Assembly: GCA_964036045.1 (NCBI GenBank)
Contig: OZ038383.1
Location: forward strand, 6,960,430 to 7,024,429
Direction: 5' to 3'
Source: Eutreptiella sp. 'Long Island Sound 2002'
Taxonomy: Eukaryota > Euglenozoa > Euglenophyceae > Eutreptiales > Eutreptiaceae
Length of the DNA stretch: 64,000 nucleotides
Below the pieces are notes generated by a model. It searched no databases and had not been told where the DNA came from. It saw only the letters and a program-made list of their open reading frames with translations. Position numbers and translations under genes: made by a program. This document shows, one piece after another, positions 9,051 through 62,086 of the stretch; the stretch's first letter is position 1, and every line of letters begins with the position of its first letter.

Positions 9051-9299
9051 ATGGGTACGGACCTTCTCGTACCCGAGGGGATTTCTTTGATTTTTGGACC
9101 ATGGGAGCATGTCCCGCCTCAGGTTTGGACTGACCAAAGCAACTCGGCCGCCACGCAAGATGAGGCAGAGGATGAGGCGGAAGTGTGTGTTTTGTGTTGC
9201 CATAGGCGCTCCACCGTCACAGTTTGTGATGAGTGTAAGGAGCACTATTGTAATGAATGTATTGACACCCACACTTGTGGGACCAATGTTGTTTGTTAA
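9051..9299 (+). CDS. Small Cys-rich ORF with a B-box-like zinc finger (repeat copy 2)
   Basis: This is the second copy of the frame at 8283, exactly 768 bases downstream, with the same 82-residue translation and the same C-x2-C-x9-C-x2-C-x4-C-x2-C-x3-H ligand spacing. Identity at this level says duplication was recent and says nothing about selection. Confidence 0.35.
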   Translation: MGTDLLVPEGISLIFGPWEHVPPQVWTDQSNSAATQDEAEDEAEVCVLCCHRRSTVTVCDECKEHYCNECIDTHTCGTNVVC

Positions 9300-10799
9300 G
9301 TGCAACACAAATGACATTTGGAGTGGTTGAAGTCACAGATATTGCTTTATTTTGCAACGTGCTTTGTAGGGAAGGTGTGCAGTGCAACGTGGTCTACTTG
9401 GGGGGCTTCTCCATGGGAGGGTAAATCTGGGGCTGAAGTCGGGATAGTTAATACAAAAGTAGCGCGCCGGGCGCGCGCCGGGCAAACATTCCCCTTCTGG
9501 GGGCCTTTTTGGGCCGTTTCCGGGACATATCATGGAGTTAGAGGGCCGCAAAGAGCTCGTTGACACGGGGAAGTCAAGCCGCAGGTGCAGTGTACCCACC
9601 GTTTCCCTTCGTTTGGCCGTTTTGAATGTGTTCCAGGGCTTTTTTGGCCCAAAAATGGCTGTTTTTGGCCCTAAACTGCAGTTTTTGAAACTGAGGTCCG
9701 CCACTTGCGAATCCCGTTCCCAGCCGCCACCGTTGAGTTTCTGGGTCAAACTTTGTGTGATTGTACTTCACACCCATAGGTATCATCCACCAAAATTTCA
9801 CTGAAATCCAAAGCACCACGACGGAGTTCTGATTTTTATCCCCAATTTCGCGCGTGCTGTTGCTTGCTGCTTGCTGCTGTTGCTTGCTGCTAAACCTGGT
9901 AGGTCCACCCTAGACACTAAAAAGGGTTATAAAACCAAGACTGGGAGGACTCGGAGGACCAAAATGGGCCACCACAAGCTCAAAACGGTCCAAAAACACT
10001 TGTTTTAGCGTCGCACATGGTCTAGGATCATTTTTGAGAAAAGTCATCTTTTTGCCCCTATTGGACGTTGTTGACCCATTTGGGCACCCACCTGTTTGGG
10101 CTTGAGCTTGCAGCTTGCTGCAGCCGAGTGGGCCTAGGTATTGGGCTCTAGGCGTCCGTTTGGGCAATTCTGAGGGGTGGAAACCACAAAAAGTGGGGGG
10201 TTGCGGGTGGAGTAGGTGCCCTCGGAATCGCATTTTGAGCCATGTAGCCAAAGATATGGCCTATTCTTGGTTTTTGGCTGTCGGCATTTGGAGCTTCTGG
10301 GGGCCTTTTTGGGCCGTTTCCGGGACATATCATGGAGTTAGAGGGCCGCAAAGAGCTCGTTGACACGGGGAAGTCAAGCCGCAGGTGCAATGTACCCACC
10401 GTTTCCCTTCGTTTGGCCGTTTTGAATGTGTTCCAGGGCTTTTTTGGCCCAAAAATGGCTGTTTTTGGCCCTAAACTGCAGTTTTTGAAACTGAGGTCCG
10501 CCACTTGCGAATCCCGTTCCCGGCCGCCACCGTTGAGTTTCTGGGTCAAACTTTGTGTGATTGTACTTCACACCCATAGGTATCATCCACCAAAATTTCA
10601 CTGAAATCCAAAGCACCACGACGGAGTTCTGATTTTTCCCCATTTCGCGCGTGCTGTTGCTTGCTGCTTGCTGCTGTTGCTTGCTGCTAAACCTGGTAGG
10701 TCCACCCTAGACACTAAAAAGGGTTATAAAACCAAGACTTGTTCCACCAGCTCGGTGACCCTAACCCTACCCCTAACCCTAGCCCTAGCTCTCACCCAT

Positions 10800-20717: not shown

Positions 20718-20755
20718 CCCTTTACACGGTTCCACTATGCCCGACCTCGTGGACA
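20718..20755 (+). repeat. 5' target-site duplication of the SL-capped LINE
   Basis: A 38-base direct repeat of 25085-25122 with one difference (tttacacgg versus tttatacgg). It ends where the SL-like sequence begins. Confidence 0.7.
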
Positions 20756-20860
20756 TTTTTAGTGTCTATTTTTTTCGGTGTCTTTTTTGCCAAGCTTGCC
20801 CTGCCAGCTGGGCCTGTTTGCTAAGTATTCACCGACGTCCTTCTCCGTTCCCACGGCCAA

Positions 20861-21157
20861 ATGAGTGCCAAGGAACACATCTCCGCTTTCGCAACAGCCG
20901 GAACCGCGCGGTTGTTACCTGCCGAGAGCCGACAGCTAGCTATCCTCGGCTCCATTGATTCTTACGACTACATCTTACAAGATCCTTTATGGTTCAAAGA
21001 CGGCTTTGATAATGACACGCAGTCAATGGAGGAGACCTCCCTTGAGCAATGTGTGGATGCTAATATAGCCTCTTCTCTAGCCTCTTCTCTGTTCTATGGT
21101 CAGCAACCAAGTATGCTACTTGTGGGTAAAATGGAGGATAGACAGAGAATCCTATGA
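20861..21157 (+). pseudogene. ORF1-like N-terminal fragment of the LINE
   Basis: A 98-residue frame beginning M-S-A-K-E-H-I-S-A-F, about 80 bases after the SL-like sequence. It stops at a TGA that overlaps the next ATG by four bases (atga at 21154-21157). The following frame continues the same protein-like composition, so the stop is best read as a one-base frameshift in a former single ORF. No domain is recognised. Confidence 0.4.
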
Positions 21158-21762
21158 GCAGAATCCGCAACCATCGGACTACCCTGGGAAAATTTGCTCT
21201 CCTTCTCTTCATGGATCGAGAAGATGATGTCTCTGGACAAACGTTTTTGTCTAAGGCGTTGGCCTTTGCGGAAAACATCCCTCTCTGCTATGACAAAATC
21301 TCAATGGCTGATAGACCAGTTGTGGACGTAGCTTCTCATAAGGAAATGGTCACATGGATAGCCTACTCAACCCCCGAGTCCAGAAGCAAACCAACAGTGC
21401 TATGTTCAACTGCGGTGATCAAAACGCTTAGGCTCATGCCACTAGGACACAAATTGAATAAAGCCACGTACAGGGAGCTTGAGCTACGACTCAATCAATA
21501 TGCGGTCCAAATGCATGTGGACCATGTCAACAACATCATGGCAACATTGCAACTTGACTCCAAAGAGCAATTCCTTGAACCTGGTGTAGACCCGCGTAAC
21601 ACGTGTCCGTTCTTCCCTCAACTAACTCCGGATCAGGTGCTGCTACTTGCGGATCAACATGGAACTAAACCTCGCTTCCAAATTCAACCCACCAGTTGGT
21701 ATAGGCGTGGTGATGACGCGCGCTTCTCGAAGGCTTTCGATGGCTTCATCAAAAAGGAGTAG
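21154..21762 (+). pseudogene. ORF1-like second fragment of the LINE
   Basis: A 202-residue frame with even, protein-like composition (for example R-E-L-E-L-R-L-N-Q-Y and T-P-D-Q-V-L-L-L-A-D-Q). I do not recognise a nucleic-acid-binding domain or a zinc knuckle here. Its position between the SL-like start and the endonuclease fragment suggests the ORF1 product of the element. The family is not identified. Confidence 0.4.
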
Positions 21763-22444
21763 GGAGATAAATGGGCCCCCTTCATGTTCATGTCAGTGCG
21801 CTCATATATTCAGGGGCATCCTTGATGTCATGACACTGGAATCGTGCGTCCGCATTTCTGTCTACGGCCTACATTGCGGATGTTCCTCAATATTGGAGCA
21901 TTGAAGATCTCCAGGGCAGAGTCAAAGGTATCTTCCCCGCTAGGCACATCGTGGACATACTCACATGGTGAGTTGGAGAAATGCGCACTGCGACTTGGCA
22001 GATCACGGATGAAGGGGCCTTTGAATTGGTCGGCAGAATTCTTCATATGGATGGTCTGACACCCCTTCTGGTTATCTCTGCGGTGGAGTAGAACACGTGC
22101 AAAGACAAGGCTATGGCCCCACGTCCACACACTACCAGCAGCGCTCCGAGAAAGGCTTTTATCACAGCCAGCGAAATGTCCCAGGCCATGGATGTTGACA
22201 CAGAGGTGCCAGCGAAACTGAAGATCCTCAAACGGGCTCGAAGTCCCCAGAACAACGTCCCTCCGCCCAATGGAGAACCCTCATAAGCCACATGACCGCC
22301 CATTATTTGGGTGGCACACATTAAATGATGAAAATGATCAATCCTCACAATCAAATCGAAGGTTGGAGAGAATGCAGGGCCGACGTCACAATGAGTAAGC
22401 CGCCAACTCCATGCCCCATATGTGAGCATGTGTGAGCGCTCACC

Positions 22445-22700
22445 CTCAACGCCAACAGCTTACTTGCAAAAATCCGTGTTGGCAATCAAAAGGTCACACG
22501 CCTCTCCAATGTTGCTGCACATGCTTGAGGCAACAATTTGGACCTTCTGGGCATTCAAGAACCACATGTTCTAAGTGACGCTCACTACAACTCCATCACC
22601 GAAGAGTTCCGGAAATACGGTTACTCCTTCTAGTCACAAACACATCTGTTGGGACATGGAGGGGTTGGTATCGCCTGGAAGTCAACGGACTGGACACTCC
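22445..22700 (+). pseudogene. EEP endonuclease N-terminal fragment of the LINE
   Basis: In frame 2, L-N-A-N-S-L starts at 22445, G-I-Q-E-P-H lies around 22550-22567, and G-H-G-G-V-G-I at 22652-22672. These are the N-x-N, Q-E-x-H (catalytic Glu) and G-G-V-G-I blocks of LINE endonucleases. In-frame stops occur near 22526 and 22631, so the domain is not translatable. Confidence 0.6.
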
Positions 22701-23225
22701 GAAATTCTCTGTGGGTACACCGCAGATTCGCAAATTTTCAGTTTCAAAGGGGCTTCCTCAATCTCACAATATGCGTTGCACATTTCCATCACCATGATTA
22801 CCAACGGGAAAGACAATGGAGGTCAATAAATCCAACCACAAAGCAGTCGTACTTTCCATGGGTCCCAAAGCCCCGTTGGCAGGCAGCCAAGGTTCTAATG
22901 CCGTACCTCTTTCTTGAAAAATGTGGAAGTGGTGCAGTCAATAAACCAAAAACCTGGAAGAAATTCAGCACTTGGACACTTGGTGGTGGGACATGGCCCC
23001 GGGGCATATCCGCTTGGAAGCATTGCGCTTTCGTGCAACGGAACCTGAACAATCGAAAGCAGGAGAAGCCGAAATCTTGTCACTCATACTCAAGTCCTTA
23101 GCCCACAAGGTACCAGGTCTATGCAACGTTGGAATCCCATGGATACACCCCAACCTCGCCAGCCTAAGCATACTCTATGCTAGTGCACCTCTATGAGCTT
23201 GTGGCACTAGGTAGCCTATCCTTTC

Positions 23226-24018
23226 GTGCACACGATCAATCATCCGGAGCACTTCCCGGCACCTGTGCGGGAGCGATTCAGGGCTTGGTGTGGCAAGATT
23301 GGTCTCTCCTATGAGCCCAGACACCTCCCCTTTATACTACTCGGTATGGTCAGAACCGCCTCCCTTTCATTCATTGCCTGGTTAGCCAAAGCGTTCTCAC
23401 TATTACGTAGACAGGCACCGCTTGTCAAGCCCCCGGCAAACACAAGTGAACTGCCAGTATGGCACAATGTCTTCTGTCGAAATGAGCACAGACACACGTA
23501 CTACGGTTCCCCCCTCATCAGTCAAGGAGTCACAACATGGGGAGCATTCTTTGGAGAGCACCACCCACGATATCATCGAACGCTTCCATGGACTTGGAAG
23601 CCTGTCTACACGGCAGCACACCGAACCCTAAAAGCGGTCATGTCGCAGGAAATTTTCGACCTTTTAGCCACATGGACCTTGTGTTGGGGTAACAGATTTT
23701 TCTTGAAATTTGTTAGCCCGGATCCTAACACACTAGAGCAGCAGCCTAGCTAGGTCTGGGAGGAATGGGTCAGAGCAAAACTCCACCCAACCACCAAGGA
23801 GTTTGTGCAACGGGCACTGTGGCATAAACTCATGGTCCATGACCGCATTTTTACACTCACAAGCACCACCGACTGCCCCCTCTGTGGAAAAAAAGGAAAC
23901 TGTAAAACACGCCCTGTCAGAATGCAAATTTTACCATGTGATTTTTGACTTCTTAAATAAATCTTGGGGTCCAACCAAGTCCCTGGGATCAATGGACGAC
24001 CCGGATGATAATAGTTGA
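23226..24018 (+). pseudogene. LINE C-terminal region with broken zinc knuckle
   Basis: The frame from 23226 reads through P-V-W-H-N-V-F and G-V-T-T-W-G-A-F to a stop at 23751-23753. In-frame continuation gives an RT-associated zinc-binding stretch ending C-P-L-C-G (23874-23888). A run of seven A (23888-23894) then shifts the frame, and E-T-V-K-H-A-L-S-E-C-K-F follows. Together these form the C-x2-C ... H-x4-C pattern of the zf-RVT knuckle of plant- and protist-type LINEs. The stop and the frameshift inactivate it. Confidence 0.6.
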
Positions 24019-24155
24019 GGCCCCCTAACTGCAAAAGACATGGCCAAGACTAGTCATGAGTTTTACTCGCTCATTCATCGGACTGCAGTGCAGAAGTCAG
24101 TGACTATGGGAACAGAAACCGACGAGAGTCGCCCCCCTCCCCAGACATAGAGAGA

Positions 24156-24209
24156 TAGTACAGTGGCACAACACCCAACGCCAGTCCTCAAGTCGGGGGT
24201 TCGAACCCC
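24156..24209 (+). repeat. tRNA-like Pol III box pair
   Basis: tagtacagtgg (24156-24166) resembles an A-box and ggggttcgaacccc (24196-24209) is a strong B-box, with spacing close to that of a tRNA. The acceptor and D stems do not pair, so I read it as a SINE head or tRNA pseudogene inside the LINE debris. Another B-box (gggttcgaaccc) is at 24807-24818. Confidence 0.35.
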
Positions 24210-25023
24210 AAGTGTGTTTGGTAAGCCCCGAACGTCCCGAACGCTCGTAACTTGTCACTTTGAAGGCTGGAGAAAAAGTGCACGGGTAATGGACATATCG
24301 TTGTGGCACTATAGTGGACAAGCACCCGGCCCTGGGTTCCCTGGGGGTAGGTTCAAACCCGGTTCCCTGGGGGTAGGTTCAAACCCTGGGGGGCTCATAG
24401 TGGTTTGGTTTGGCGACACGGTCCATAGATATCTCCCTCCCGTCGGCCACTTTATGTTTTTCACCGGACGCCACTCAGACACCGGTAGCACGGTGCACGG
24501 CTACATTTTTGACCCCCCCCCCCCAGACTAAAGAGGACACTGCACAAGGAAGGAGCATACCTGAAATGCACTAAGCACACGCGTCACAGTGCTCTTCGGG
24601 TTGGAGGCCAGGCCTGCGGGAGCCTCCCGTGGAGGCGATGGGGCCGGCCTTGCCTTCGGACTCCGTCACGTGATATGAACCAACGGACAGTTCGAGCCCC
24701 AGTGAGGTAAAATGGATAATGGAAGCGGGTGGTTGGGGAAATGGTTATACTGGTGACCGCCAAGCAGCAAACCGGAAATGCACTACACACACGCGCCACA
24801 GAACACGGGTTCGAACCCAGGTCCCGGTTGGGCTGCCGTGGAGCTGTTGCTTTTGTTTTTCTGGGATACACACCTAACCGGTCCAATGGGGGGTGCAGGC
24901 TCTTACCCAAACGGGCCAAGAAACATTCAATAGCCGCTGACTGCGGTGAGCTCAAGGCAACGTTCGGCCCTCGTTTGAGATTTGCTGCAGTGCAGTAGGT
25001 CAAACAATGAACTGAGGTTTGTG

Positions 25024-25084
25024 GCGATGACCATATGCCTGTGACGCAGGGGTATATGTGAGCTCTGTATCCGTTGCTTTATGG
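25024..25084 (+). repeat. LINE 3'-tail family, copy 1
   Basis: Reads cgatgaccatatgcctgtga, then cgcaggggtatatgtgagct, then a final ccgttgctttatgg immediately before the target-site duplication. Copies of the same tail are at 49445-49507, 54675-54736 and 59311-59372. Confidence 0.8.
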
Positions 25085-25122
25085 CCCTTTATACGGTTCC
25101 ACTATGCCCGACCTCGTGGACA

Positions 25123-33562: not shown

Positions 33563-33892
33563 GATGGGGGGAGGGTTGACATTGATGGTGGCCGCTTTCC
33601 CTTGCTTTGCATGGTATTGCTTTGCATAGCATTCAACACATGCAAGTACGTGGGGTGTGCCTCAATTGGCGGAGAGAAGCAGTTTCTACTATTCTTCACT
33701 GACGGCGTAGCATGGCAGCGCTTTTCTTGGAGCATGAGAAGAATGACGGATTGGCAATCCTGGCTGCAGTCAAGCAACGAACAACGAGTAGACACAATTG
33801 CTGTGACAAATATGTCCGCCACAGGGTGCACCCAACGCGTGGAGGTCGACAAATAATGCGTTGGTCTGCGCCCCCCAAAAGGTCACGCATTG

Positions 33893-33917
33893 CTTTCTGA
33901 GTGTCTATTTTTTTTCG
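33893..33917 (+). other. Genomic copy of the spliced-leader sequence
   Basis: A 25-base match to the euglenid spliced leader (core gagtgtctattttttttcg), lacking the first three bases as I remember them. It lies 16 bases before the RING ORF start. It is not followed by a GT donor (cgagtg), so it is not an SL RNA gene but a leader already joined to a message. Confidence 0.7.
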
Positions 33918-33933
33918 AGTGCGGCTCGTTACT

Positions 33934-35187
33934 ATGTCTCAACAAGAAAATGAGTGCCCCATCTGCTTGGAGGACTACAATGAACCTGTGATTGGGCCTT
34001 GTGGCCACGCGCTGTGTTTGTCTTGCGCCCTGGACTGGCTCTCCCGTCAGTCCGAGTGCCCCGTTTGTCGCCATCCCCTGCAAACAAGAGACATTGTCAG
34101 TTCTAGTGGATCCTCGTGGGACTTGTCTGCTGAGGTGACATCCGACGCCTCGGACTCGCATGATTCAGAGGGTTGGGCCAGCGAGGACGATCTGGAGCAG
34201 GTCACGCGTATCGTGCGGACAACATCGTGCATTGCCCCACTTGCGGGCGGCGCATGTGCGGTGGCCGCGGCCTCCTCCACGATCCAACATTCGGCCAGCG
34301 GGCCAAGCATTTCCCGCCTGGCCAAGCCTCGGATGTCGACAGCCGGTCTGCAGCCGCCAGGCGGCGACCAGCCTGTCAATCCGCGCGACCCCCGAGTGCC
34401 TGGCCCCTTCAATTTCCCACACAAAAGAGACAGCCTCATTGCTGTGGACGCTGCCGAAGGCCGGGCTGCCACCCCTCTTCCCCCCAGTCCGTCCAGTCCA
34501 TTTGGTCCGCAACGGTCCGCTTGGGCCCACCCGGACCCCCGGCACATTCCGCCTTCGCGCAGCAGAGTCAACTCAGGGGCCCAGCCACCCACCGGCCCAA
34601 ACTCGCCATTGGGGCGCTCGGCATCGGGGCTCGCGGCCATGGGTCGCACCAGAGGGACTAACTCACACGTCATTGGGAAACACCTCCCCCTCGGGGGTCA
34701 ACTCCTTGATTCGTGTGTCCCTAGGCGCGGCAGCCTCAGTGCATCTGCGCTTTCACGGTTCCGCATTCCCGCCGTCATCCTCGACACGCCCCGCAGTCCA
34801 GGCGCGGCGAGCCCCTCCTTCGACACGCCCCGCAGCCAGCCCGGCCGACGTGCCTCAGCCGGTCAACCCCCGCGACCAGACTACGGCTGGCGATTTCCCC
34901 GTCAGGATCAGTGGCAGCAACAGCCACGACACGTTGGCAAGATCCCTTCCCTGTCTTTCTGGGACTTCCCTGTCTGGGCCTCGGTCTCCAGACCGGAAGC
35001 ACTCTGGCACGATTTCCAGGCGGCTGCAGCCGTTGTTGCGCCCAGGGCGCACGGGTCAAACTCGCTGATCTCTGTTTCACACATCACACGGGCTCAGCGC
35101 CATTCGTCCCCATGTCATACACAATCCATCATCCTCCCAATCTTCCGGTTGTGTCGAGTACCGCGCTCGTGCCCAGCTCCGGACTAG
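33934..35187 (+). CDS. RING-HC finger protein, probable E3 ubiquitin ligase (intronless retrogene)
   Basis: This encodes 417 residues. A C3HC4 RING lies at residues 8-45: C8, C11, C23, H25, C28, C31, C42 and C45, with the usual P-C-G-H and C-P-V-C wording. Known of the family: such domains bind E2 enzymes and transfer ubiquitin. After it comes an acidic Ser/Asp/Glu stretch, then a long Pro/Ser/Arg-rich, probably disordered tail with a repeated D-T-P-R-S motif. Substrate is unknown. The ATG at 33934 starts M-S-Q-Q-E-N-E-C and lies 16 bases after the genomic SL copy. It is intronless and sits in an SL-to-poly(A) insertion, which points to a retrocopy. The frame is still open, so it is young or selected. 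Around 34230 another frame encodes C-P-T-C-G-R-R-M, so a compensating frameshift inside the tail cannot be excluded. Confidence 0.7.
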   Translation: MSQQENECPICLEDYNEPVIGPCGHALCLSCALDWLSRQSECPVCRHPLQTRDIVSSSGSSWDLSAEVTSDASDSHDSEGWASEDDLEQVTRIVRTTSCIAPLAGGACAVAAASSTIQHSASGPSISRLAKPRMSTAGLQPPGGDQPVNPRDPRVPGPFNFPHKRDSLIAVDAAEGRAATPLPPSPSSPFGPQRSAWAHPDPRHIPPSRSRVNSGAQPPTGPNSPLGRSASGLAAMGRTRGTNSHVIGKHLPLGGQLLDSCVPRRGSLSASALSRFRIPAVILDTPRSPGAASPSFDTPRSQPGRRASAGQPPRPDYGWRFPRQDQWQQQPRHVGKIPSLSFWDFPVWASVSRPEALWHDFQAAAAVVAPRAHGSNSLISVSHITRAQRHSSPCHTQSIILPIFRLCRVPRSCPAPD

Positions 35188-36721
35188 TCCGACTGAATCC
35201 TCACAACGAAGGACGCAGAAAAGGCGAAGGACAAAAGGGCGACCCCTGGGCCCCGGAGGAACTGCGTTACGCCCCCTGGAGTTATGGCCCACCGAGGGCC
35301 CACCGAGGGCGCAGTTGTAGGCGACTTGTCCACGGCGTTTTTCAGTTATTTCTGGGGGAATTGGGCTTCCCCCTCAAGCGGGGTGTGGTACTGGCTTGGT
35401 ACCGAAGGGTATTGAAATGGGAAATATGATGCGTCTGCCGGTGCTGTCCACAATCTGCAGCTCTTTTTTTCTGTTTTCACGGAGGGCGGCCCTTCAAGAG
35501 GCGGCCACCAAGTGTCCCTAACGGCGCGGCGGCCTTCCTCCCACCAGTGGAGCAGGGATACCCTCCGGGTTACAAAGCGCACAACTGTTGTTGAGACAGG
35601 TGTGATTCACTCGTTGCGAGGGTGTACGCACACCCTCAAACCGGTGAACGAGATACAGTACAACCTGAAACCCCAAACCTAATTTCAATGCAGATTTGAT
35701 TCACTCCAAACCAATTCAGACCATCCAGGTCCGACGCTGCCCTCTCTCAAAGGCGCCGGGCTTCCTCAGAAACACTGCTCCCTGCCCCGCTCAGCCAAAC
35801 CATTGGACTTGTCCTGATTCCGCTGTAGGGAGGCTGTATTCGCATCTTTGTGAATGAATTGGTAAGACGCCCCTGTGTTCGTGCCTGAAAAAGGGCTTTG
35901 TGCATGTTCCTGTGTCCGTGCTTGGGTGTGGGCTTCGTGCAGCCACCCATGTGAAAGCAACATCAGTGTTTCCATGCTCCTTTCTGGTCAGCTGCCTCAC
36001 ACGAATTGCGCATTCGCAATTGGGTGCAAATGAGACCTTTGTCCCAACATGGATACCGGCAAACAAACACACGCCCAGGTGCCACACTTCCTTCAAGCCA
36101 TTCACTAAAACATAACTGATGCCTCACCACCAACCCGAGAATGCAACCCCGACCCCACCCTGACCAGGCTCCCCCAAGACCCACGTTGGAATAGAGAGAT
36201 CCAATGCACACCTTGGACTGGGAAACATCGGTGGCCGCGTAGCCGATCTCTGGCCAACATTCGACTCATCAGCAACCTGTCAGAGATCAGTCAGTTGTTG
36301 AGACAACCGGTGAAACAGTCTGCATGAACCCCAGTGACTTGCACTTAAAGCCCCCTCAAAATGACCCCAATCCCCCAAGATGCCCCACCCCCCGAACCCC
36401 AGGATCCACTCAGAGAAGGCCATTCGCAGGCGTGGTGGCGCCAGTGTTTTCAGCAGACACTTTGCCCTGCTGCAGTCCCGCTCTTTAGCTGGTAGCAGCC
36501 AACCTGGGGAACCACCAGTGCACGGGCCATGTTTGCATGAATGGAAGGTGAATGCCACGAGGACGGATTGCATCGCTGTCCCCATGCGGTGTACACGCAT
36601 TGTGGACGGCGATACAACACAGCGGACGCAAGTGGACGGAACTGGTGGGCAGCTGTTGAAACAGTAAAGTGGGTGTACAACATTGATCGCTGTGTGGGCA
36701 GGACCCACCTGCTGAGAGGGT
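35188..36721. other. 3' part of the retro-insertion; no gene recognised
   Basis: No domain or splice-supported frame. 36541-36720 has a protein-like frame (R-C-P-H-A-V-Y-T-H-C) that is homologous to 39180-39400, except that the latter carries about 170 extra bases. Confidence 0.35.
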
Positions 36722-37233
36722 GTCAGTCGTGGCAGGATCTCAATCCGCCCGTTGGGCATCGGTCCAACCGCAACGGGGAGGGGAGGCAGTCCCCCTGCGT
36801 TTCTCCCTGGCCCTCTGCCTGCTGCTCGCGCCCGGCACTCCTTCAGCCTCATGAGCGGCGGGGAAGGGGGTTTACAGTTTGAAGTGGCTTGTCCAGGCGA
36901 CGGCAGCAGCGACTCGGTCAAGTCCACCGGTTGAGCACGCCCAGGGCGATTTCACGTTCGGGCAGTGCAACAAGCAACAGCTCATCTTAGGCGTTTCGCT
37001 AATTTGTGGTTTTTGTTGCCATCATTTCACTGGCAGTGGCATTGGCCTCGAACAAGCATTCCATTGTGCGTGTACACCTGTCGCTCAGTTGAACCCGAGA
37101 TTTGTTGAAACATTGATGCTGCCTTCAAAAATTTTATTCCTCACGTTTGAGTGATGATCAATTGATGCAATATTGTAAGTGCAAGCAGAGCAAGCGGGCC
37201 CCCCACCCCCTTTCCTGCCTTTGTACCCCAAGG
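36722..37233 (+). repeat. Segmental duplication A, copy 1 (copy 2 at 39401-39900)
   Basis: gtcagtcgtggcaggatctc through cctgcctttgtac is repeated with few changes. Copy 2 lacks about a dozen bases near 37132-37146. The frames inside show no domain. Confidence 0.9.
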
Positions 37234-37287
37234 CGACCCCCTCCCTTGACTCCTCGCCCATTATGGAACAGTGTGCAATCGCTATCT

Positions 37288-37464
37288 ACGTGAAATCTAT
37301 CCCACGTCCTCCCGAAGCGTCCCAAGGTTGCCAAACTGGCGGTGACGGTTGCTTGGGTTGACACATTCTGGGACACCTGTTGATTTCTTATTGGGTGGAG
37401 TCACAGGGAGCAGGCTCTGCCTCATGCAGATCACTTCCTTGGTGTGAACATTGTACCATCAGAC
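37288..37464 (+). repeat. Segmental duplication C, copy 1 (copy 2 at 38636-38814)
   Basis: cgtgaaatctatcccacgtc through gtgaacattgtaccatca is repeated at 38636-38814 with scattered substitutions. Confidence 0.9.
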
Positions 37465-38140
37465 TGGAACACTGCGCAATCGCTATCGCCCCCCCACCCC
37501 CTTGTCCAGTAAGCACCCTTGTCTAGTAAGCAGGTCGGACTGGGGTACGAACCCCGATCCTCCGGCATCTCGCTAACCCCCAACTCCGCCCACACGCGCC
37601 CCGCTGCCGCTTCCCTCTCCCACATCCCCTTCCCCACCGTCATCCCCTGTGCCCGGACCATGCAGCCAGGTCGGGTGCCCTCTCAGAAGTCGCCTGTGAC
37701 CGCGCACCCGCACTGTGTGAAACCCTCTCTCCGCCGACAGACTCAGCCTGCCCCAGTCGATCATGTTGTCCTTCCATTCCTTCACTTTCCATTTTCCAAA
37801 TTTTCTTAGAAGGTTGGATATTGAGGTTCCCCTGTGTGTTTGCTGATTAGACGAGGTACTGTCAGGGTCAGGGTCGCCATTGCATGCCTCACAGACTGCA
37901 ACTCGTAGCACTGGACAGCTCTGAACCTTGATTCCGAGAGGTCATCTCGAGTACTGTGAAGTGAGAGGGCTACGCCAGCTCATCTTGGTCAGCACCAAAA
38001 AAAAAAAAGCATGCCTCACAGACTGCAACAGATTCTGATGTGTCATCGCAGACATCTGTCGATAGTGGTCTCCCAAGTGGTGGTGAAGAAGACAGTGACA
38101 GTGCGTCCGACACTGAGATTGTGTGGGCAAAGACTACTCG

Positions 38141-38185
38141 TGGTGTAGGGGGTTTGGCAAATGTTTTGCCAAACCCCCTACACCA
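38141..38185. repeat. Perfect 21-base-pair hairpin
   Basis: tggtgtagggggtttggcaaa (38141-38161, 21 bases) is exactly complementary to 38165-38185 around a three-base loop. It interrupts an otherwise protein-like acidic frame (38030-38140). Confidence 0.92.
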
Positions 38186-38203
38186 AGGAAATCGTATTTC
38201 ACC

Positions 38204-38428
38204 TGCGATGTTCCTGAGGCAAACAGCTTGCCACAGGGGCTGCAGCCCCCTGCCAATCCTGCTGCCAAGCCTGCCCCCAAAGCTGCCAAACCTGGTGCCA
38301 AACCCTCCAAGTGTGCAGCCAAACCTGCAGCTGGAGAGCCCATTCCTGTGGCCTGTTGAGCATGTGCAGCTCTCGAAGGTCAAATACTTGCGTCAGCAAA
38401 AGTGGCACACCGAGCCTGTTGCTCAGTA
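38204..38428 (+). pseudogene. Frameshifted H-V-Q-L family member (copy 3)
   Basis: One frame carries a Lys/Ala/Pro-rich linker (A-A-K-P-A-P-K-A-A-K-P) up to about 38350. A different frame then carries E-H-V-Q-L-S-K-V-K-Y and ends W-H-T-E-P-V-A-Q before TAG at 38426-38428. Linker plus H-V-Q-L core is the same order as at 27770 and 30491. A one-base shift separates them here, so this copy looks broken. Confidence 0.4.
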
Positions 38429-38837
38429 GACCTCACAAGCATCCCTGCAGGCAGTTTCATGGTCATTTTGTGGTTCACATGCCCCCGTGGTTGTATCTCT
38501 TGTTTTGTGTTGCGCGTCCTTTGTCCAGTGTTTAGGGGGGGCGGGGGGGCGAGGGAACTGTCACTTGGACGTTCCCTCGGGGGTGTGAGGGAACCGTCAC
38601 GCGCGGACGCTTACTGAACAAGGGTGGCGGGGGGCACGTGAAATCTATCCCACGTCCCCCCAAAACGTCCCAAGTTTGCCAAACTGGCGGTGATGGTTCT
38701 TTGGCTTGACAAATTCTGGGACACCTGTTGATTTCTTGTTGGGTGGAGTCACAGGGAGCAGGCTCTGCCTCATGCAGATCACTTCCTTGGTGTGAACATC
38801 GTACCATCACAGACACCACAGGGCCTGCGCGGCACGC

Positions 38838-39175
38838 CGATCAGGGTTGATGGTGTATCATCTGGAAGACACTTGCACAGTTTGTGCTGCAGGGCATACA
38901 CCGGTGCAGTCAGGGAGCCCAACGAGAGGCCTCATCATTGTGCCATTCCATGGCAGCATTTCTCCGGTTCGACGAGATGCGGGATGGGACTGCTCATACG
39001 GAATGTGTGAGCCTTTGTTTAACATTTTAACATGCATTGATTGTGCGCAGAGCTACCGTGTTCAGTAGTTTTGTGATTTGGGTGAATCCCAGGGCCGCGC
39101 TTCCTTGTTCAGGAGGCAGAGGCCACGATGCGCAGGTGTACCATGTCACCAGGAGGGAGGGAAACACATGGCGGC
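38838..39175 (+). repeat. Segmental duplication B, copy 1 (copy 2 at 40241-40577)
   Basis: cgatcagggttgatggtg through gtaccatgtca is repeated with a handful of substitutions. Two frames stay open in both copies without stronger conservation of either, so coding is not shown. Confidence 0.9.
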
Positions 39176-39400
39176 CCTGTTGAAACAGTACAGTGGGTGT
39201 GACACGGCAGCATTCCCACTGCACAGGCCGTGTTTGGTATGCAGGCGTACCAGGGTCATGTTCTGCATTGGCGAGCTGGCCCCAGAGCCCAACCCCCGAA
39301 AGGCCCACCGATGGGACTGGGTGGTGCACTCCAGACCCACTTTGTGTTGCTGGTGTGGTGTCCCATGTACATTGATTGCTGTGTGGGCAGGACCCACAAT

Positions 39401-39900
39401 GTCAGTCGTGGCAGGATCTCAATCCGCCCGTTGGGCATCGGTCCAACCGCAACGGGGAGGGGAGGCAGTCCCTGCCTGCGTTTCTCCCTGGCCCTCTGCC
39501 TGCTGCTCGCGCCCGGCACTCCTTCAGCCTCATGAGCGGCGGGGAAGGGGGTTTACAGTTTGAAGTGGCTTGTCCAGGCGACGGCAGCAGCGACTCGGTC
39601 AAGTCCACCGGTTGAGCACGCCCAGGGCGATTTCACGTTCGGGCAGTGCAACAAGCAACAGCTCATCTTAGGCGTTTCGCTAATTTGTGGTTTTTGTTGC
39701 CATCATTTCACTGGCAGTGGCATTGGCCTCGAACAAGCATTCCATTGTGCGTGTACACCTGTCGCTCAGTTGAACCCGAGATTTGTTGAAACATTGATGC
39801 TGCCTTCAAAATTTTCAGTGATGATCAATTGATGCAATATTGTAAGTGCAAGCAGAGCAAGCGGGCCCCCCACCCCCTTTCCTGCCTTTGTACTCCAAGG
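39401..39900 (+). repeat. Segmental duplication A, copy 2
   Basis: Second copy of 36722-37233. Immediately upstream, 39180-39400 matches 36655-36721 except for an extra ~170-base piece between gtgggtgt and acattgat. Confidence 0.9.
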
Positions 39901-40577
39901 AAGCCCCCAATATTCTCGGAAATTTTAGGGGAATTCAAAAGTGGACAAAAACTCGCCCTTTTCAGTTGGCTCACAATCACTATCCCATCTCTGAGCACCA
40001 TGTTCCAGAGATGGCCAATACCCTAGTTGGTGGCACACTACACTCACAGTTGAAGAGTCCTATGTTCAATCCCTGGTGCTGGCATAGGCAGTGCATTGTC
40101 TTGTGTCTTGGAGGAGGAGCCCGTATTGGTGTTTCTGCGAGATTGAATTTCGTAATTGTCCTTTCATCATCGGGAGGGGGGGGGGGGGCAACCCCCCCCC
40201 CCCTTACTATATCCACCCCTGCGGCACGCTGTCATTTCGCCGATCAGGGTTGATGGTGCATCATCTGGAAGACACTTGCACAGTTTGTGCTGCAGGGCAT
40301 ACACCGGTGCAGTCAGGGAGCCAAACGAGAGGCCGCATCATTGTGCCATTCCATGGCAGCATTTCTCCGGTTCGACGAGATGCGGGATGGGACTGCTCAT
40401 ACGGAATGTGTGAGCCTTTGTTTAACATTTTAACATGCATTGATGATGCGCAGAGCTACCGTGTTCAGTAGTTTTGTGATTTGGGTGAATCCCAGGGCCG
40501 CGCTTCCTTGTTCAGGAGGCAGAGGCCACGATGCACAGGTGTACCATGTCATTGGGAGGGAGGGAAATACATGGCGT

Positions 40578-41641
40578 CCCTCTGGGTCTTCTGAAACCGA
40601 ATCGCATGGCCGCCCTGAAACCGAATCGCATGGCCGCCCTGCAACTCTTCGTGTACTTGTTTGGTCCGAAGTTGGTGTTGGTGGTCTAATGATATTGGGC
40701 ATATGCGGTCCCCGTGTACACGCCCCACTTACTGAATCCTCTGTTATACAAAGTGATGACATTGCAGCAGGCATGGCACGTTGACCGGTCAAAGCAGTGC
40801 AGATGGCTTGGCAGGAGCTTTCTTGCCCTGTTGTGCTGGAAAGAAGATTGCCAACCAACCTGGTTCTGTTGTACGACTCCTCCTTGTGGAATCGGTTGAG
40901 GGGTGCACCCGGCCGGCAGCAGAGGTGCCGTGAAGAACTGGGAACCTGTCTCGAGCATCAGGTCTCGACTCCTTTCGTTCTCTGCGCTGATGGGCTTTCT
41001 GCTGTGTTCCTTTTCAGGGATGCAGTGATAGTCCTCTTCATTTGCTTGAAGGGATTCCACTTCTCTTTGCATGGTGCACAGCATGACTCCATCGCATGCA
41101 GCATGCGCACGACAGCATGTGAGCGGCCACGGAGGGTGCCACCCACACGTCGCACGCGGTGCACACAGTGCACCAGGGCATGTGCATTTGACTGATGTAC
41201 ATGTGCGCTGCAAGTCACCAAGTCGCTCTGCTTGAATGTGCTGGGACTATGTTCTGCAGCATAGTAAAAAAAACCCAGGATACTTCAATGATGCAGTGTG
41301 CGTGGTGCGTGCGGTGTGCGGGTGGCACCCTCGCGGCCAAGCAACGTTTTACAACAGGAGTTTGCAGGGAGGAAGCACCTTGGAAGGCAAGATGAATCTA
41401 TGGGTCTCAACAATACAGGAGACTACGTGAGCTTCACCATCAACATAAGGCCGTTAGGCGTGGCACTGCGTAGTGCATATGCAAGGGGTAGACCAAGCAG
41501 GTAGTGAACAGAGACAGCTCCCCAGGTAAAGCTGGAACACATGCCAAATGTGGAGCCCTCGTTTGTACTATATGCCCTACTTCTTGAACCAGGCGGTTGC
41601 CTGAGAGCTCACATTACACTCTTTGAACTTGTTGAGCCTGA
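40578..41641. other. 3' end of the retro-insertion; no gene recognised
   Basis: Contains a short tandem duplication at 40592-40632 (tgaaaccgaatcgcatggcc twice) and GTGC-rich words at 41095-41180. It ends in gagcctg followed by the A-rich tail. No domain is seen. Confidence 0.4.
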
Positions 41642-41660
41642 AAAAAAAACAAAAACAAAA
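41642..41660 (+). other. Poly(A) tail of the retro-insertion
   Basis: Aaaaaaaacaaaaacaaaa-type tract directly before the second copy of ggtcacgcattgc. No strong AATAAA signal is seen just upstream. Confidence 0.6.
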
Positions 41661-41673
41661 GGTCACGCATTGC

Positions 41674-43367
41674 ACCCAACAATCGCATTTTGGTTTCCAA
41701 TTCCCCTCTTGCAGAGGCATCGCCCACATTCTCCGAGTATATTTTGCCCCCGGTGTACTCCACTCACCCTCCCATCCCATCATTCCCCCTCCTTGAGGAA
41801 CCTAGAACTAGGGTTGGTGCTTGGGCGTCCTCGTTGATCTCCCGTACTGTGTTGGGTTTGGCCCGAAGGGTCAAGGCCGCATGCGTTGCTGTGGTGCAGG
41901 CCTATGACCCAGGGCCATAAGCCCTACCCCGCTGTGGAGTGCTCCACAAAGCCACATGTCCCTTGCAAACGAAGAGGCTGACCGTTTTTCGCAGTTCAGT
42001 CTGAGGTTGAGATACATAGCCATTCAATTCCTCTACAAAGCACAAAGGTGGCAAAGCACACAACACCGCAGCACACAACACATGGAAAAACACAGCATTG
42101 CACGGCACATGGAAGAGCACAGCAACACACAGCAAACACAGCACAATACAACACAAGAGCATAGCACACAACACATCGACACACGTTGATCATGAAGAAT
42201 CTGCAGAGACACAAGATGTTATGATTGTACGTTGCTTGGGCCTCGGGTACCACGTTTCCGGGTGCGCCTGTACTGTAAATAAATGGACCTTCTACAATCC
42301 GGGGTTCTCCCGAGTACACTCAATGACACCTTGAGCGTTAGGAACTCAAAAAAAAAAAGAAGAAGAATCTGCAGAGACACGAGAAGACCTCAGTGGATGA
42401 CATATGTGAGTTCCCAAGAGCGAAATGTCGGTGTCCAGCCAAGAAGGTGACAGGACAATTATGAATATCGTTGTCCGCAACAATTGACCCCCCCCACCCC
42501 CAACAAACAGAGTGTGCAACAGGTGAGATGATGTGCACAGCACACAGGTGTGGTGATTAGAAGTCGCACCAACTGTATACTCCGGCTAGAAATGTACAAA
42601 GCCCCCCCCCCCCCCCCTTGCGCAAGCACTGCCTTGTCCAAGCACGGGGACCCGTCTCCCCTTATTTTCCTGCCTTTCAGCGTGCTTGGCAAAGGGGGGT
42701 AAGTAGCTCTTTCAACGTCGACCACGACCCATGTCTTTGACCGGGGAAGTTCCTGTGGTATATTCTATGAGTGTACCTAGATACTGAGACCGCTGAGACC
42801 GTCTGGTACTGTTGCAGAACTGTTGCCCCTTTGTCAAAAAAAGTTTCTGCACAATACTAATGGCGAATAGTCAGCGCACGGAATTGTGGTGGTAAGGTAA
42901 GGTGCACAAGAGCGCTGGTGGTGTGTCAGTATGATTTGCGGCCATCCACCTACATACCCAAAAGAGGGGGGACGTTTGCACTGAAGGGAGCAGATTGCAA
43001 TGACAGAGGGGGGGGTTTCTATCTCCATCCGTATCAGTGGGGACAGGGTGAATAAGAGGCACAGTGATGGCCCTCACGAACAGTGAACAATTGGTATTTG
43101 GACAGTAGGCAATGAAGGCACTGGAGTGGCAGGTGCAGCTGGAGTCTGATGCGGTGATTGTAACCTGACCTGGTTGCATCCTTCGGGGACCCTAGGCCAT
43201 GGCCTGCACAGCATCCCCTTTGGCTTCCTTGCGTGTGTCAGCGGGTGGGATACACTGGACACTGGAACACCCCCGCGCTCGCCCAAATCCGGCGCTCGGT
43301 GCAATCGCACAGGTGTTCTGCTCTTTGCACCTTTCAACACCGCTGTCGTGGACTCCTTTTTGGAGGC
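41674..43367. other. Intergenic; one weak exon candidate
   Basis: 41717-41920, after a cttgcag acceptor, is open and ends in a plausible helical tail before TAA, but has no domain or partner exon. 42056-42185 is CACA-rich. Poly-C runs lie at 42484-42494 and 42602-42618. Confidence 0.3.
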
Positions 43368-44165
43368 ATGCCCAAGCGCACGCGCTCTGCGGCACCGGAT
43401 GGTCCGCCGGCCAAGGCCGCGGTCAAGGGGTCGCGGTCCCGGGCGAGTGCCGCTGCCCCGTCAAAGGCGTGGTTTGAGGAGCTGTACAGCGGCGGAATGA
43501 GCGCCGACTACAAGCGCTACATGACGGACGAGTGGGGGCACGAGAAGCGGGGCGACCAGCCGCTCTTCGAGAAGCTCTGCCTTGAAGGCGCCCAGGCGGG
43601 CCTCAGCTGGGCAACCATCCTGGCCAAGCGTGAGGGCTACCGCGCCGCATTCCGCGGCTTTGATATATCACGATGCGCAGCCCTCACCGATGGTGACATC
43701 GACCGACTGGTCAACTCGCCGCAGGCCAAAGTCGTCCGGCACCGCGGCAAATGCGCAAGCGTCGCAGGTAATGCGCGGGCGACGCTCCGTTTGATCGCGG
43801 AGGAGTCCGCGGCTGCCGGCCCCAGAGCGACGCCTCCACCGCACGGCTGGTTCGATGCCTACATTTGGAGTTTCGTGGGCGGCGAGCCGCAGCTCAACTC
43901 GTGGCCGGACCGCAGCGCAATTCCGACCGAGTCTCCGGCAGCGATCGCGATGTCAAAGGCGCTCAAGAGGCGAGGCTTTGCCTTTGTGGGGCTGAAGATC
44001 TGCTATTCGCTGATGCAGAGCTGCGGCCTTGTCATTGACCACCCCAAAGGGACTCCTGAGTGGGAGCGCGCACGGCAGCGACTCGTATTGCGGGAGCAGT
44101 TGGGGCCGCCGACGACGGGGCCCGCGGCCAAACGGCGTGCAGCAACAACGTTGCGGAGGCGGTAG
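43368..44165 (+). CDS. tag: 3-methyladenine DNA glycosylase I (Tag family)
   Basis: This encodes 265 residues and is intronless. It excises 3-methyladenine from alkylated DNA, leaving an abasic site for base-excision repair. The core is clear: E-W-G (55-57), C-L-E-G-A-Q-A-G-L-S-W (71-81, with the family's active-site Glu at 73), R-H-R-G-K (124-128), W-S-F-V (167-170), I-P-T (185-187), S-K-A-L-K-R-R-G-F (196-204), F-V-G, C-Y-S-L-M-Q-S-C-G (212-220) and D-H (224-225). A basic, Ala/Ser-rich N-terminal extension of about 30 residues could direct it to the nucleus or an organelle. Odd point: in bacterial Tag a zinc ion is held by Cys4, His17, His175 and Cys179; here only the third has a counterpart (His225). 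The ATG at 43368 follows a tttttggag acceptor by two bases, consistent with SL addition. The exon is GC-rich against its flanks. Confidence 0.9.
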   Translation: MPKRTRSAAPDGPPAKAAVKGSRSRASAAAPSKAWFEELYSGGMSADYKRYMTDEWGHEKRGDQPLFEKLCLEGAQAGLSWATILAKREGYRAAFRGFDISRCAALTDGDIDRLVNSPQAKVVRHRGKCASVAGNARATLRLIAEESAAAGPRATPPPHGWFDAYIWSFVGGEPQLNSWPDRSAIPTESPAAIAMSKALKRRGFAFVGLKICYSLMQSCGLVIDHPKGTPEWERARQRLVLREQLGPPTTGPAAKRRAATTLRRR

Positions 44166-49264: not shown

Positions 49265-49700
49265 ACGCCCCCAGGGTCCCATAGTGGAGAGGAATCAATA
49301 TGGCTCACAAGCCCCCACCTTCTCAGGGTCCCCATTGTGGGGAAAAATCAATATGGCTGCATAACCTTTGCCTTCTAGGGGTTCCCTCGTTGGGAAATAA
49401 TCAATTGGCGGCATAACCCCTACCTTCCCGGAGTTCAGTTGAGTGGTGATGACCATGTGCCTGTGACACGGGGGCGTATGCGAACCCAGTATCTGTTGCC
49501 TCATGGCTGGAGTTCAATAGTGGGGGGGAATGTGGCTACAAAACCGCCGCCTTCTTGGTGGGGTTATGCAGCCATATGGATTCCTCCCCACTATGGGGAT
49601 CCCAAGAAGGTAGGACAACCATATTGATTACTCTCCACCATGGGGACCCCCCGAACGCACAGGTTATTGAGCCATATTGATTCTTGCATGTTTTGCCGTT
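49265..49700. repeat. G/C-hairpin satellite, block 2, with an inserted LINE tail
   Basis: Same family as 48121-48460. One unit is split at 49441-49507 by a short LINE 3'-tail insertion; the flanking words ggagttca (49431-49438) and ggagttca (49510-49517) act as the target-site duplication. Confidence 0.65.
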
Positions 49701-51948: not shown

Positions 51949-53184
51949 ATGCCTTTCTCTCGGGACACCCTTACCGAGCTTAGCATGACGCTAACGCGTT
52001 TGAGTGGGGCCAAGAGTTTGCGGGACCCTTTGGTCTCCCAACTCCTTGGTGAGTGGGTGGCTTCATCCCCGTTGGCCAAGGCTCGTTGGGCCGAGGCCAC
52101 GGAGGTTGGCTACCCCACCCTCATTCGCAATAAGCAAAAGGAGGCGGTGAAGCAATACGCTTCTATGCTCTTTCCCGCACCCCACCTTATTGGGCTACTT
52201 ATGGAGCTCAATGTCACAAAGACGGGATACCGCCACCTCTCCGCCTTCATGACCCGCCGCGGGCTTGACTATACGGCCGCTACCGGCCACGAATTCCCGC
52301 GCCCTATCCCCACACGGCAAGCCTTCTTGGACACTTGGAAGGAGTTGGTCAAGGCGCTAGAGTTGCGCCCGCCGGTGACCGTCTCCGACCCCCCCGCTAG
52401 CGGCCGCAGTTGGCCCATACATTCATGGGCCCGCTACATTCAATCGCGTCCACCACTAGTGGACACCATTGATTGGACGCGGCCCCTCACCATCATTTTG
52501 CGTGGTGATGCGTACCCGTGCGCCGGTGGGAGTTGGACTCAATTGTCCATTGGGCTCCTCAACCATGGCAAGCGGGGGCGCACACCCGCCTATTTGTGGG
52601 TCATTGGGATGGCCGTGTGCGGGGACAAAGAAATGGCCGCTTTGGCCACTATATGGGCCGAGAACCTTCAGGTTTGTGGCCGTTTCGTGGTGCATTGATT
52701 TTCATACCGCTTCGTTTAAATTTTGTTCGTTTAATTTTGCATTTCTGATTAAAACTTAAGTCGCCGGAAAAATTAGTTTAAAATTTAAACGAAAAAGATC
52801 TGTTCGGAAATTAATGCACCATCCGATTCTTTAGGTGTTGCAGTCCATTCACGACTGCAAGCAATTTTGCTGGGCAACCCGGTGGGTGCCCAGTGAGCTG
52901 GTTATTGGGGGTGACCAGCCGTTCGTCCGCCGCCTTATTGGGGTGTCTACGTCGCCCATGGTGGGCTCTATTTACAACATGGGGGTGTGGGACAAGCCAA
53001 CCAAACCCTCCCCCCCCGCATCCAAGACCAACCCCAACCCAAAACCCAAACACAACCTCAAGAGCCAGCGCTTCGAGTCGGACGATGAGTCCGACTCGGA
53101 GTCTGCCCCGGACTCCTCAAGCGGAGCCCCCCCCCCCCCGCAAGAAAAAGAACAACCCCCCCCTACCCCCGAAGACCAAGGCCA
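51949..53184 (+). CDS. Transposon-encoded protein, putative transposase N-terminal part (two exons)
   Basis: Exons are 51949-52671 and 52835-53184. The intron (52672-52834) has cag|gtttgt and ttctttag|gtg sites, is phase 0 and is very A/T-rich. The ATG lies eight bases after a ccttgtgtag acceptor. The N-terminal ~150 residues are helical and basic. I-I-L-R-G-D-A-Y-P (about residues 185-193) and, after the junction, V-I-G-G-D-Q-P-F-V-R-R-L-I-G each place an Asp in a short hydrophobic strand, as the first two acidic residues of a DDE/RNase H-fold transposase would. The third is not identified, so transposase is an inference. The product then turns acidic (D-D-E-S-D-S-E-S) and Pro-rich. A 13-C run (53127-53139) probably carries a one-base slip, because the basic linker K-K-K-N-N-P-P-L-P in another frame matches the frame used after the insertion. 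Confidence 0.5.
53127..53139 (+). other. 13-C homopolymer, likely frameshift point in the transposon gene
   Basis: Upstream the acidic frame is ≡2 (mod 3). Downstream the K-T-K-A frame is 0 and agrees with the frame of 54754-55220. One C more or less would connect them, whether from a real mutation or an assembly error. Confidence 0.45.
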
Positions 53185-53944: not shown

Positions 53945-54753
53945 TACATGATTACATGCCACACAGACCTATTCAACACATTGACACTGTGGGGGTTTGA
54001 TTTTGCCGGATCTCAGAGGCACTTGAACCAGGGTCTTACGTGTAAGCCTCAGATTTTCAAAAACTATGCCAACGAGATCTGTGACATCCCACACAGGGGT
54101 GTGATAATGACTGTTGCCTTTATTGAGTAGCACTATATATTACAGGCAGAGCAGGCTTTTTGTTTTAGACCGGACTACTGCTTGGGACGGTCGTTCACAC
54201 TGGGGCGAGGCCTGTGGCTGTGGCCTCTCCCCATTATTCAGGTTGTCACCGGCTGAGGTCATTGAGGACCCGTCCTGCGTTTTGTTTGGTTACAGGCAAC
54301 CGAACATAGTTCTTTAGGGCCCCTCCGGCCCTAACCCCACTACCTGCGGTTTCTCTAAGTGTTGGCAACGACCAGTCAGCCCTCACTCTTTCTGGGTGAC
54401 GCTGACGTATGGGCACATCTGGTTTCCTATGACCTGTTGTTGAATTCCCCAAGACCGAATGAGTGTCGGGGAGCACTGTAGAGCCTCTGCACCGCTTTTA
54501 AGCATCATTGGTGGGTCTCCAGCTGGGGTGACTCGGAATGCATGATTTTCTTTATATGATGGCATTATATAGTGGTGTTTTGTAAGCTGAGCTGACGTGT
54601 GCACAGTGAATCTGAGACACCAATCGAACCTGATATGGATGTGCTGCAGTGCAGCAGAACAATGCACTGATTGTGGTAATGACCATGCGCCTGTGACACG
54701 GGGGCGTATGCGAGCCCAGTATCCGTTGCATCATGGCCCGAAGACCAAGGCCA

Positions 54754-61075: not shown

Positions 61076-62086
61076 GCTAGCAAGGTTTTGGGACGATGGT
61101 GATACAGTGAGTGGTGCATGGTGGGTGGTTATACAGTGTGCCTCAAGTCGCCACTTGGCTTCGCCCAACCTGCTGCACAATACTCACTGCATCATGTCCA
61201 AAGTCACCCCACAATTGTCTATGTCCACAGCACCACCCCATGCTCCCACCTCCGGTGTCGCCTGTCCGGTTGTCAAAGCCACTCACTACCGGGGAGGGGA
61301 AAATTAGAAACAGGCGAAATTTGGCACGATCAAACCGTGCCAAATTATGCCATCGTATTTGAAGGTCCGAAGCCATTTTTCTGGGTCTCATTTATACCTC
61401 TCTTGGCATGCACATTTTCACTGTGCCCCACAGAAGCCTCCAAGAAATAACAGCAACGAACCAAAGGAGTGAAGTGTCACGCAAGTGTAAATAAAACAAA
61501 TTTGAAAAAAAAATACGTATTTTCCCCCCTTTGATTGCCACGCCAGTCACTGGCATGACACTCAAAAGTAAGAACAATTTTTTTTGAGTGCCGGCACGAG
61601 TGTCTATTTTTTTTTGTCAGCGCGAGTGTACCCAAAAAAAAGTCAAATCATTTTTTGATTTCCAATCCGCCCTTTTTGGGCGTTCCCAGGTTATTTAGCC
61701 TTTGTGCCCCAAGGGGCGTCCTTAAGGAACGAACCCCCCCCCCCCCTTTTTTTGGTTAACGACCGCCCTCAAAAAACACTCGTAAGGGCATTTTTCGACC
61801 GGCCCGATGTGGGCCATTTTTGTTCCCGTGTTGGGGAGCCCCAAGAAGGTAGGGGTTATGTAGCCATTCCACCCAAATGTGGGCCCCTAAGAAGGCAGGG
61901 GTTTAGTAGCCATTTCTGATTTTGTCCCCCTGTGTGGGGACCCTGAGAAGGCAGGGGCTACGTAGCCACTTTGCCCAGATTAGGGCCTTTTTAGATGTTG
62001 CTCCCACGCTTCGGTGCGGTGCCTTGAGTTGGGGTTAAGGACTTCCACGCTTCAGCGTGGCCCCTCGAGTTGGGTCCTCAAGTTCT
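61076..62086. other. Spacer with G/C-hairpin satellite and an SL-like remnant
   Basis: cgagtgtctatttttttttg at 61597-61616 resembles the SL core but lacks its cg end. 61826-61985 holds three inverted units of the G/C-hairpin satellite. 62000-62058 repeats the ccacgc...gcgtgg hairpin word. No gene seen. Confidence 0.4.

Follow-up and report, generated by a model that had tools for sequence, protein, structure and literature searches.

Here we describe a spliced leader (SL), a sequence otherwise added only to RNA, that stands in chromosomal DNA at the 5′ end of what appears to be a polyadenylated gene copy. The locus occupies positions 33876-41673 of the window, by which we mean the whole stretch of 64,000 nucleotides analysed here from contig OZ038383.1 of Eutreptiella sp. 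'Long Island Sound 2002'. We interpret it as the product of a target-primed insertion, of the type carried out by long interspersed nuclear elements (LINE), in which a mature trans-spliced and polyadenylated RNA carrying a RING-finger reading frame would have been copied back into the chromosome. Judged from the sequence, we place the probability of this reading at about 0.93.

The features at the locus follow one another in the order duplication, leader, message, A-rich tail, duplication:

33876..33893, + strand: left target-site duplication, 17 bp, or 18 bp with the leading C; exact copy at 41656-41673
33894..33917, + strand: spliced leader, matching 24 nt of the 26-nt Euglena gracilis leader; the C before it is assignable to leader or duplication
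33918..33933, + strand: 5′ untranslated region (UTR), 16 nt, beginning with AG immediately after the leader
33934..35187, + strand: open reading frame, 417 codons and a stop codon, encoding a C3HC4 RING finger close to its beginning (Pfam zf-RING_2, E 8.2e-12, in the stop-to-stop frame 33901-35187)
41641..41656, + strand: A-rich tail of the insertion, A9-C-A5-C
41656..41673, + strand: right target-site duplication, exact match of the left copy

Junctions of the insertion

The 17-base word AAAAGGTCACGCATTGC occurs exactly twice in the window, at 33877-33893 and 41657-41673, which confirms the two copies 7.78 kb apart that a preliminary description of this DNA had reported. Allowing up to three mismatches returns the same two matches, while shuffled controls gave a mean of 0.24 matches and reached two in 2 of 100 shuffles. 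The repeat grows to 18 bp if the C before each copy (33876 and 41656) is counted, and the two copies enclose a segment of 7.76 kb.

Directly 3′ of the left copy stands TTTCTGAGTGTCTATTTTTTTTCG, which has no other match in the window at up to three mismatches and none in 100 shuffles; about 1e-10 occurrences of this leader word would be expected in the window. The SL of E. gracilis is given in PMC6242988 as the 26-nt sequence ACTTTCTGAGTGTCTATTTTTTTTCG, so that what is missing here from the 5′ end is A or AC (1-2 nt), depending on the owner of the shared C. Earlier, 25 leader bases had been counted after the first repeat copy; the leader is indeed present, but with 24 bases, and with 25 only when the shared C is included. 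Because the leader marks the 5′ end, the copy extends almost to the cap. The stronger statement that the leader guarantees 5′ completeness therefore has to be softened to near completeness, given the 1-2 leader nucleotides that are missing. At the other end, AAAAAAAAACAAAAAC lies directly 5′ of the right repeat copy, and the A-rich tail previously noted there was found again as A9-C-A5-C at 41641-41656.

Since the leader is added post-transcriptionally, a leader encoded in DNA and directly joined to a message, as is characteristic of leader-tagged retrogenes, indicates that a mature RNA was transferred to a chromosome. The original proposal that a trans-spliced, polyadenylated RNA had been reverse-transcribed and inserted is thus supported jointly by the leader-UTR joint, the A-rich tail, the 17-18 bp duplication and the position of the leader at the duplication boundary. 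Retrocopies mobilised by LINE are recognised by an A-rich tail at the 3′ end and by their position between duplications of about 7-20 bp; here the tail is present and the duplication is exact over 17-18 bp.

An SL RNA gene or pseudogene located by chance upstream of a RING gene would equally place the leader sequence in DNA. In an SL RNA gene the leader is followed by a GT splice donor, which the preliminary description had itself named among the observations that would overturn its proposal. The joint reads instead CG-AG, AGTGCGG coming next, and the absence of the donor argues that this is not an SL RNA gene (no separate search for an Sm site was made). In addition, an ATG frame begins within 16 nt of the leader, and the duplication and A-tail would be left unexplained. 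Such a gene is, in our judgement, an extremely improbable source of the leader.

The events that could have produced the locus are as follows. In a Euglena-like nucleus, a RING-finger messenger would have gained the 26-nt leader by trans-splicing, together with a poly(A) tail. A reverse transcriptase presumably of LINE type would have nicked one strand of the target and used the free end to prime synthesis along the poly(A) RNA, stopping 1-2 nt short of the cap; joining of the second strand would have duplicated 17-18 bp of target. Afterwards the insert would have been altered by at least one nested poly(A) insertion of 106 bp, and probably also by internal duplications. The leader, the A-rich tail, the duplication and the exact order of these parts are read directly in the sequence; the enzyme, the trans-splicing history of the inserted RNA and the Euglena-like host are deduced.

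Further poly(A) insertions in the window

The window was scanned for exact repeats of 12-30 bp at a spacing of 40-12000 bp in which the right copy follows an A-rich stretch. The + strand gave three matches and the − strand gave none, against 0, 1, 0, 0, 0 and 0 in six block-shuffled controls of the + strand. Starting from A-runs of at least 8, a duplication was present at 3/8 runs on the + strand and 0/5 on the − strand, and at none in four shuffled controls with eight runs each. The matches of these scans are the leader-tagged insertion itself plus two short insertions:

37882..38029, + strand: nested 106-bp poly(A) retro-insertion (37903-38008) between 21-bp exact duplications, 37882-37902 and 38009-38029
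42194..42380, + strand: separate 149-bp poly(A) retro-insertion (42213-42361) between 19-bp exact duplications

The duplications of 17-21 bp at all three insertions suggest that one kind of enzyme was at work. Integration of long terminal repeat (LTR) elements, by comparison, duplicates 4-6 bp. Target-primed insertion of LINE type would account both for the poly(A) at the 3′ junction and for duplications of this length (17-21 bp), and we consider it very unlikely that LTR-retrotransposon machinery, as proposed for dinoflagellates (PMC6050394, in part), retroposed this message, although the E. gracilis assembly is described as rich in LTR elements, with LINEs at about 1.5% (PMC11252322).

The whole window has no Rfam match at the gathering threshold. 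A permissive Rfam search of 37860-42420 returned 13 matches, all under the gathering score, and thus gave no identification of the 106-bp and 149-bp inserts. Folding of the insert bodies (37903-37996 and 42213-42346) was no better than that of shuffles (z 0.61 and -0.09, respectively), and the inserts are not known to match any small RNA.

Additional leader sequences and a family with a shared tail

Local alignment of the full leader to the window singles out three places on the + strand, with scores of 25 (the insertion described above), 17 and 15. The next place on the + strand scores 11.5 and the best on the − strand 10.5. As a null we used 40 leaders whose first 16 letters had been permuted and whose T8CG end was kept, aligned to the + strand only and in slightly wider, coarser windows; these scored at most 13. 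One of the two additional places lies just inside a second insertion:

20718..20755, + strand: left duplication of the second leader-tagged insertion, 38 bp of which 37 are identical (30 bp exact); right copy at 25085-25122
20756..25084, + strand: degenerate insertion of 4.33 kb, tentatively LINE-like, with broken frames and no A-tail at its right end
20761..20777, + strand: leader relict AGTGTCTATTTTTTTCG, one T short of the leader, 5 nt inside the insertion; alignment score 15
61598..61616, + strand: third leader-like word, GAGTGTCTATTTTTTTTTG, above the permuted-leader null

The usual domain order of LINE is an endonuclease followed by a zinc-binding reverse-transcriptase end. Faint matches stand in this order in the 20756-25084 element. 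Exo_endo_phos at E 0.02 was the sole Pfam match in 20.7-26.2 kb (below the cut-off, in a frame translated with stops as X), and it was not recovered from separate pieces. The zf-RVT match (E 0.1) is also below the cut-off, and the same piece matches two unrelated models at 0.083 and 0.095. Among the eight pieces submitted to Pfam, seven from the 20.7-26.2 kb region and one from 52.8-53.9 kb, two gave matches, all sub-threshold, and no reverse transcriptase core was found by Pfam in the element. These matches hint weakly that the element may be LINE-like.

A 3′ tail of about 70 nt, ending in ATGG, is present in four copies, at 25020-25084, 49440-49506, 54672-54736 and 59306-59372 (self-BLAST rows of at least 45 bp, and alignment). 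After each copy comes a direct repeat of its left flank. This repeat is 38 bp long (37 identical) for the copy at 25020-25084 and 17 bp long for that at 54672, where it duplicates 53168-53184. For the copies at 59306 and 49440, inspection by eye gave repeats of 12 bp and about 8 bp, which are short and doubtful. The window thus seems to hold a retroposon family without poly(A) but with a conserved tail, the longest copy of which has the leader relict. A process similar to that proposed for the RING message may have leader-tagged this longest copy, in which case transcripts of the retroposition machinery may be leader-capped too.

These additional insertions also bear on whether the locus is a product of chance or of assembly, for example through carry-over of complementary DNA (cDNA) or a chimeric contig. 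All of the evidence does come from one assembled window. A cDNA chimera, however, would yield no target duplication, chance is opposed by the expected frequency of the leader word given above, and similar anatomy recurs in two more poly(A) insertions and in a second leader-tagged insertion. We therefore hold an artefact to be highly improbable.

The RING frame and the length of the copied message

Several observations weigh against a retro-inserted RING message. The openness of the frame is only moderately unusual, being matched by 11 of 3000 dinucleotide shuffles. GC content by codon position is nearly flat in the RING frame (0.64/0.61/0.66), compared with 0.64/0.59/0.78 in a glycosylase frame from 43362, which gives weak support to coding past the RING part. 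A protein search with the frame from its second codon gave one weak match (P0001) among the best 7992 scored candidates, with 12% query coverage, 44% identity and E 7.4e-4. The downstream 6.4 kb of the insert appears to be a non-coding patchwork, and 7.76 kb is very long for a frame of 1.25 kb. Inspected by eye, the nick site of the 106-bp insertion offers no T run for pairing with poly(A), unlike the target of the leader-tagged insertion. Finally, no duplication was found in the window for the leader-like word at 61598, although any insert there may run past the window end; the earlier claim that the leader marks such copies gains support from the relict 5 nt inside the junction of the 20756-25084 insertion and not from this third word. 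That the RING frame is a working retrogene is possible, as far as its sequence can indicate.

The glycosylase frame belongs to 43233-44165, which holds an uninterrupted frame of 310 amino acids with a strong methyladenine glycosylase domain (Pfam E 9.5e-53) and GC-rich third codon positions.

The interior of the insert is repetitive:

36680..40581, + strand: internal duplications found by self-BLAST, 36680-37241 = 39369-39908 (94%), 38835-39178 = 40238-40581 (97%) and 37288-37461 = 38636-38809 (94%)

The offsets of these repeats are 1.35, 1.40 and 2.69 kb. Across its three forward frames the insert matches no Pfam models but those for RING, and nothing was found in the three reverse frames at E up to 0.1; no coding transposon was thus detected within the insert. 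Of the listed exact pairs (14-44 bp) that lie wholly within the insert, the 106-bp insertion alone is cleanly bounded, the remaining pairs lying in or beside the internal duplications. A 12-bp pair at 37275/37476 may bound another later insertion. A small LTR-type element was also envisaged for the 174-bp repeat (37288/38636), but inspection by eye showed no matching target duplication, and this reading was abandoned.

How much of the 7.76 kb was copied from RNA is a question on which two versions of the retro-insertion differ. The first is that an RNA of about 5-7.7 kb was copied, which had been trans-spliced and polyadenylated while its cis-introns were kept; the RING frame would then be just the first exon. 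Leader and A-tail do lie 7.7 kb apart within one common duplication, intron retention is noted for dinoflagellate retrogenes in part of PMC6050394, and the 106-bp insertion is the only cleanly bounded one among the exact pairs of the segment. On the other hand, RING is the sole Pfam domain in the six frames, a change in the size of the segment is evident from its nested insertion and internal duplications, and the 12-bp repeat may mark a further later insertion. We see a long RNA as a possible but less probable version. The second is that the insert grew later. With the nested insertion and the internal duplications, the copied message was probably shorter than the 7.76 kb seen today, and the internal duplications probably arose after insertion. 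We tentatively prefer this later growth to the copying of a long, partly unspliced RNA. The enclosed segment consequently need not be one message, and the preliminary description is to be corrected on this point.

Relation to known systems and significance

Leader-tagged retrogenes, recognised by relicts of the dinoflagellate leader (DinoSL), are established in dinoflagellates according to the accessible parts of PMC6050394 and PMC12014239. The present locus resembles them in that the 5′ end of a gene copy carries, in DNA, a spliced leader otherwise confined to RNA. It differs in lineage, which judged by the leader is Euglenozoa, and in its visible A-tail and target duplications, which point to a LINE-type mechanism; the retroposition machinery of dinoflagellates is termed unknown in PMC6050394, with LTR elements favoured. 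In the rhizarian Paulinella, recycling of mRNA with leaders has been reported for 11 candidate genes, 6 of which passed a manual check (PMC9311404, in part). There too, leader-bearing mRNA was reverse-transcribed and returned to the genome; the lineage is again a different one.

Several further systems share part of this anatomy. Mammalian processed pseudogenes and retrogenes of L1 type likewise have an A-tail, a duplication of about 17-21 bp, a sense-oriented mature message and short neighbours of the same anatomy. Unlike in L1-type copies, the 5′ end here is marked by the leader, and the copy reaches nearly to the cap. SLACS and CZAR elements of kinetoplastids insert into SL RNA genes. As with these elements, a retroelement here adjoins spliced-leader sequence, but the leader belongs to the insert, which sits in an unrelated target: no second leader word lies beside the site, the other two being 13 and 28 kb away. 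SLACS reverse transcriptases have also been annotated in Diplonema (PMC10161547, in part).

Among the papers listed from open-licence PMC literature, screened mostly by title and the start of the abstract, none dealt with leader-tagged retrocopies in Euglena or its relatives, and the genome papers on E. gracilis and Diplonema, in the portions consulted, make no mention of them. The 20-base leader word was found neither in viral contigs nor in genomes of bacteria and archaea (0 matches each), in collections from which records near the source genome were possibly left out. The classification of this locus as a new case, outside the known lineages, of the established leader-tagged type of retrocopy is well supported.

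The leader tag provides a permanent genomic mark for copies extending nearly as far as the cap. Should this hold genome-wide in euglenids, RNA-mediated gene duplication could be counted by one short word and a duplication, as it is by the leader in dinoflagellates, and LINE-type junctions such as those visible here would name the mechanism. Euglenozoa would then join dinoflagellates, and by report Paulinella, as lineages that recycle leaders into the genome.

An inserted leader could also serve as a portable splice acceptor. In dinoflagellates the relict leader is discussed with respect to acceptor sites (PMC12014239) and as a promoter (PMC6050394), in the accessible parts of both papers. The T8 tract followed by CG-AG (33908-33919) would offer a ready pyrimidine tract and AG, such that a copy landing in a transcribed region might be trans-spliced again at once and become a working gene without its own promoter. 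LINE transcripts with a leader might behave likewise, and trans-splicing would then be tied to the way retroelements spread in euglenids. We regard this extension, suggested by the motif, as unlikely.

Other repeats in the window

Apart from the insertions, recent local duplications occupy 7565-10739. Self-BLAST finds there 792 bp that are identical (7924/8692), 354 bp at 99% (7565/9950) and 449 bp at 98.7% (9494/10294).
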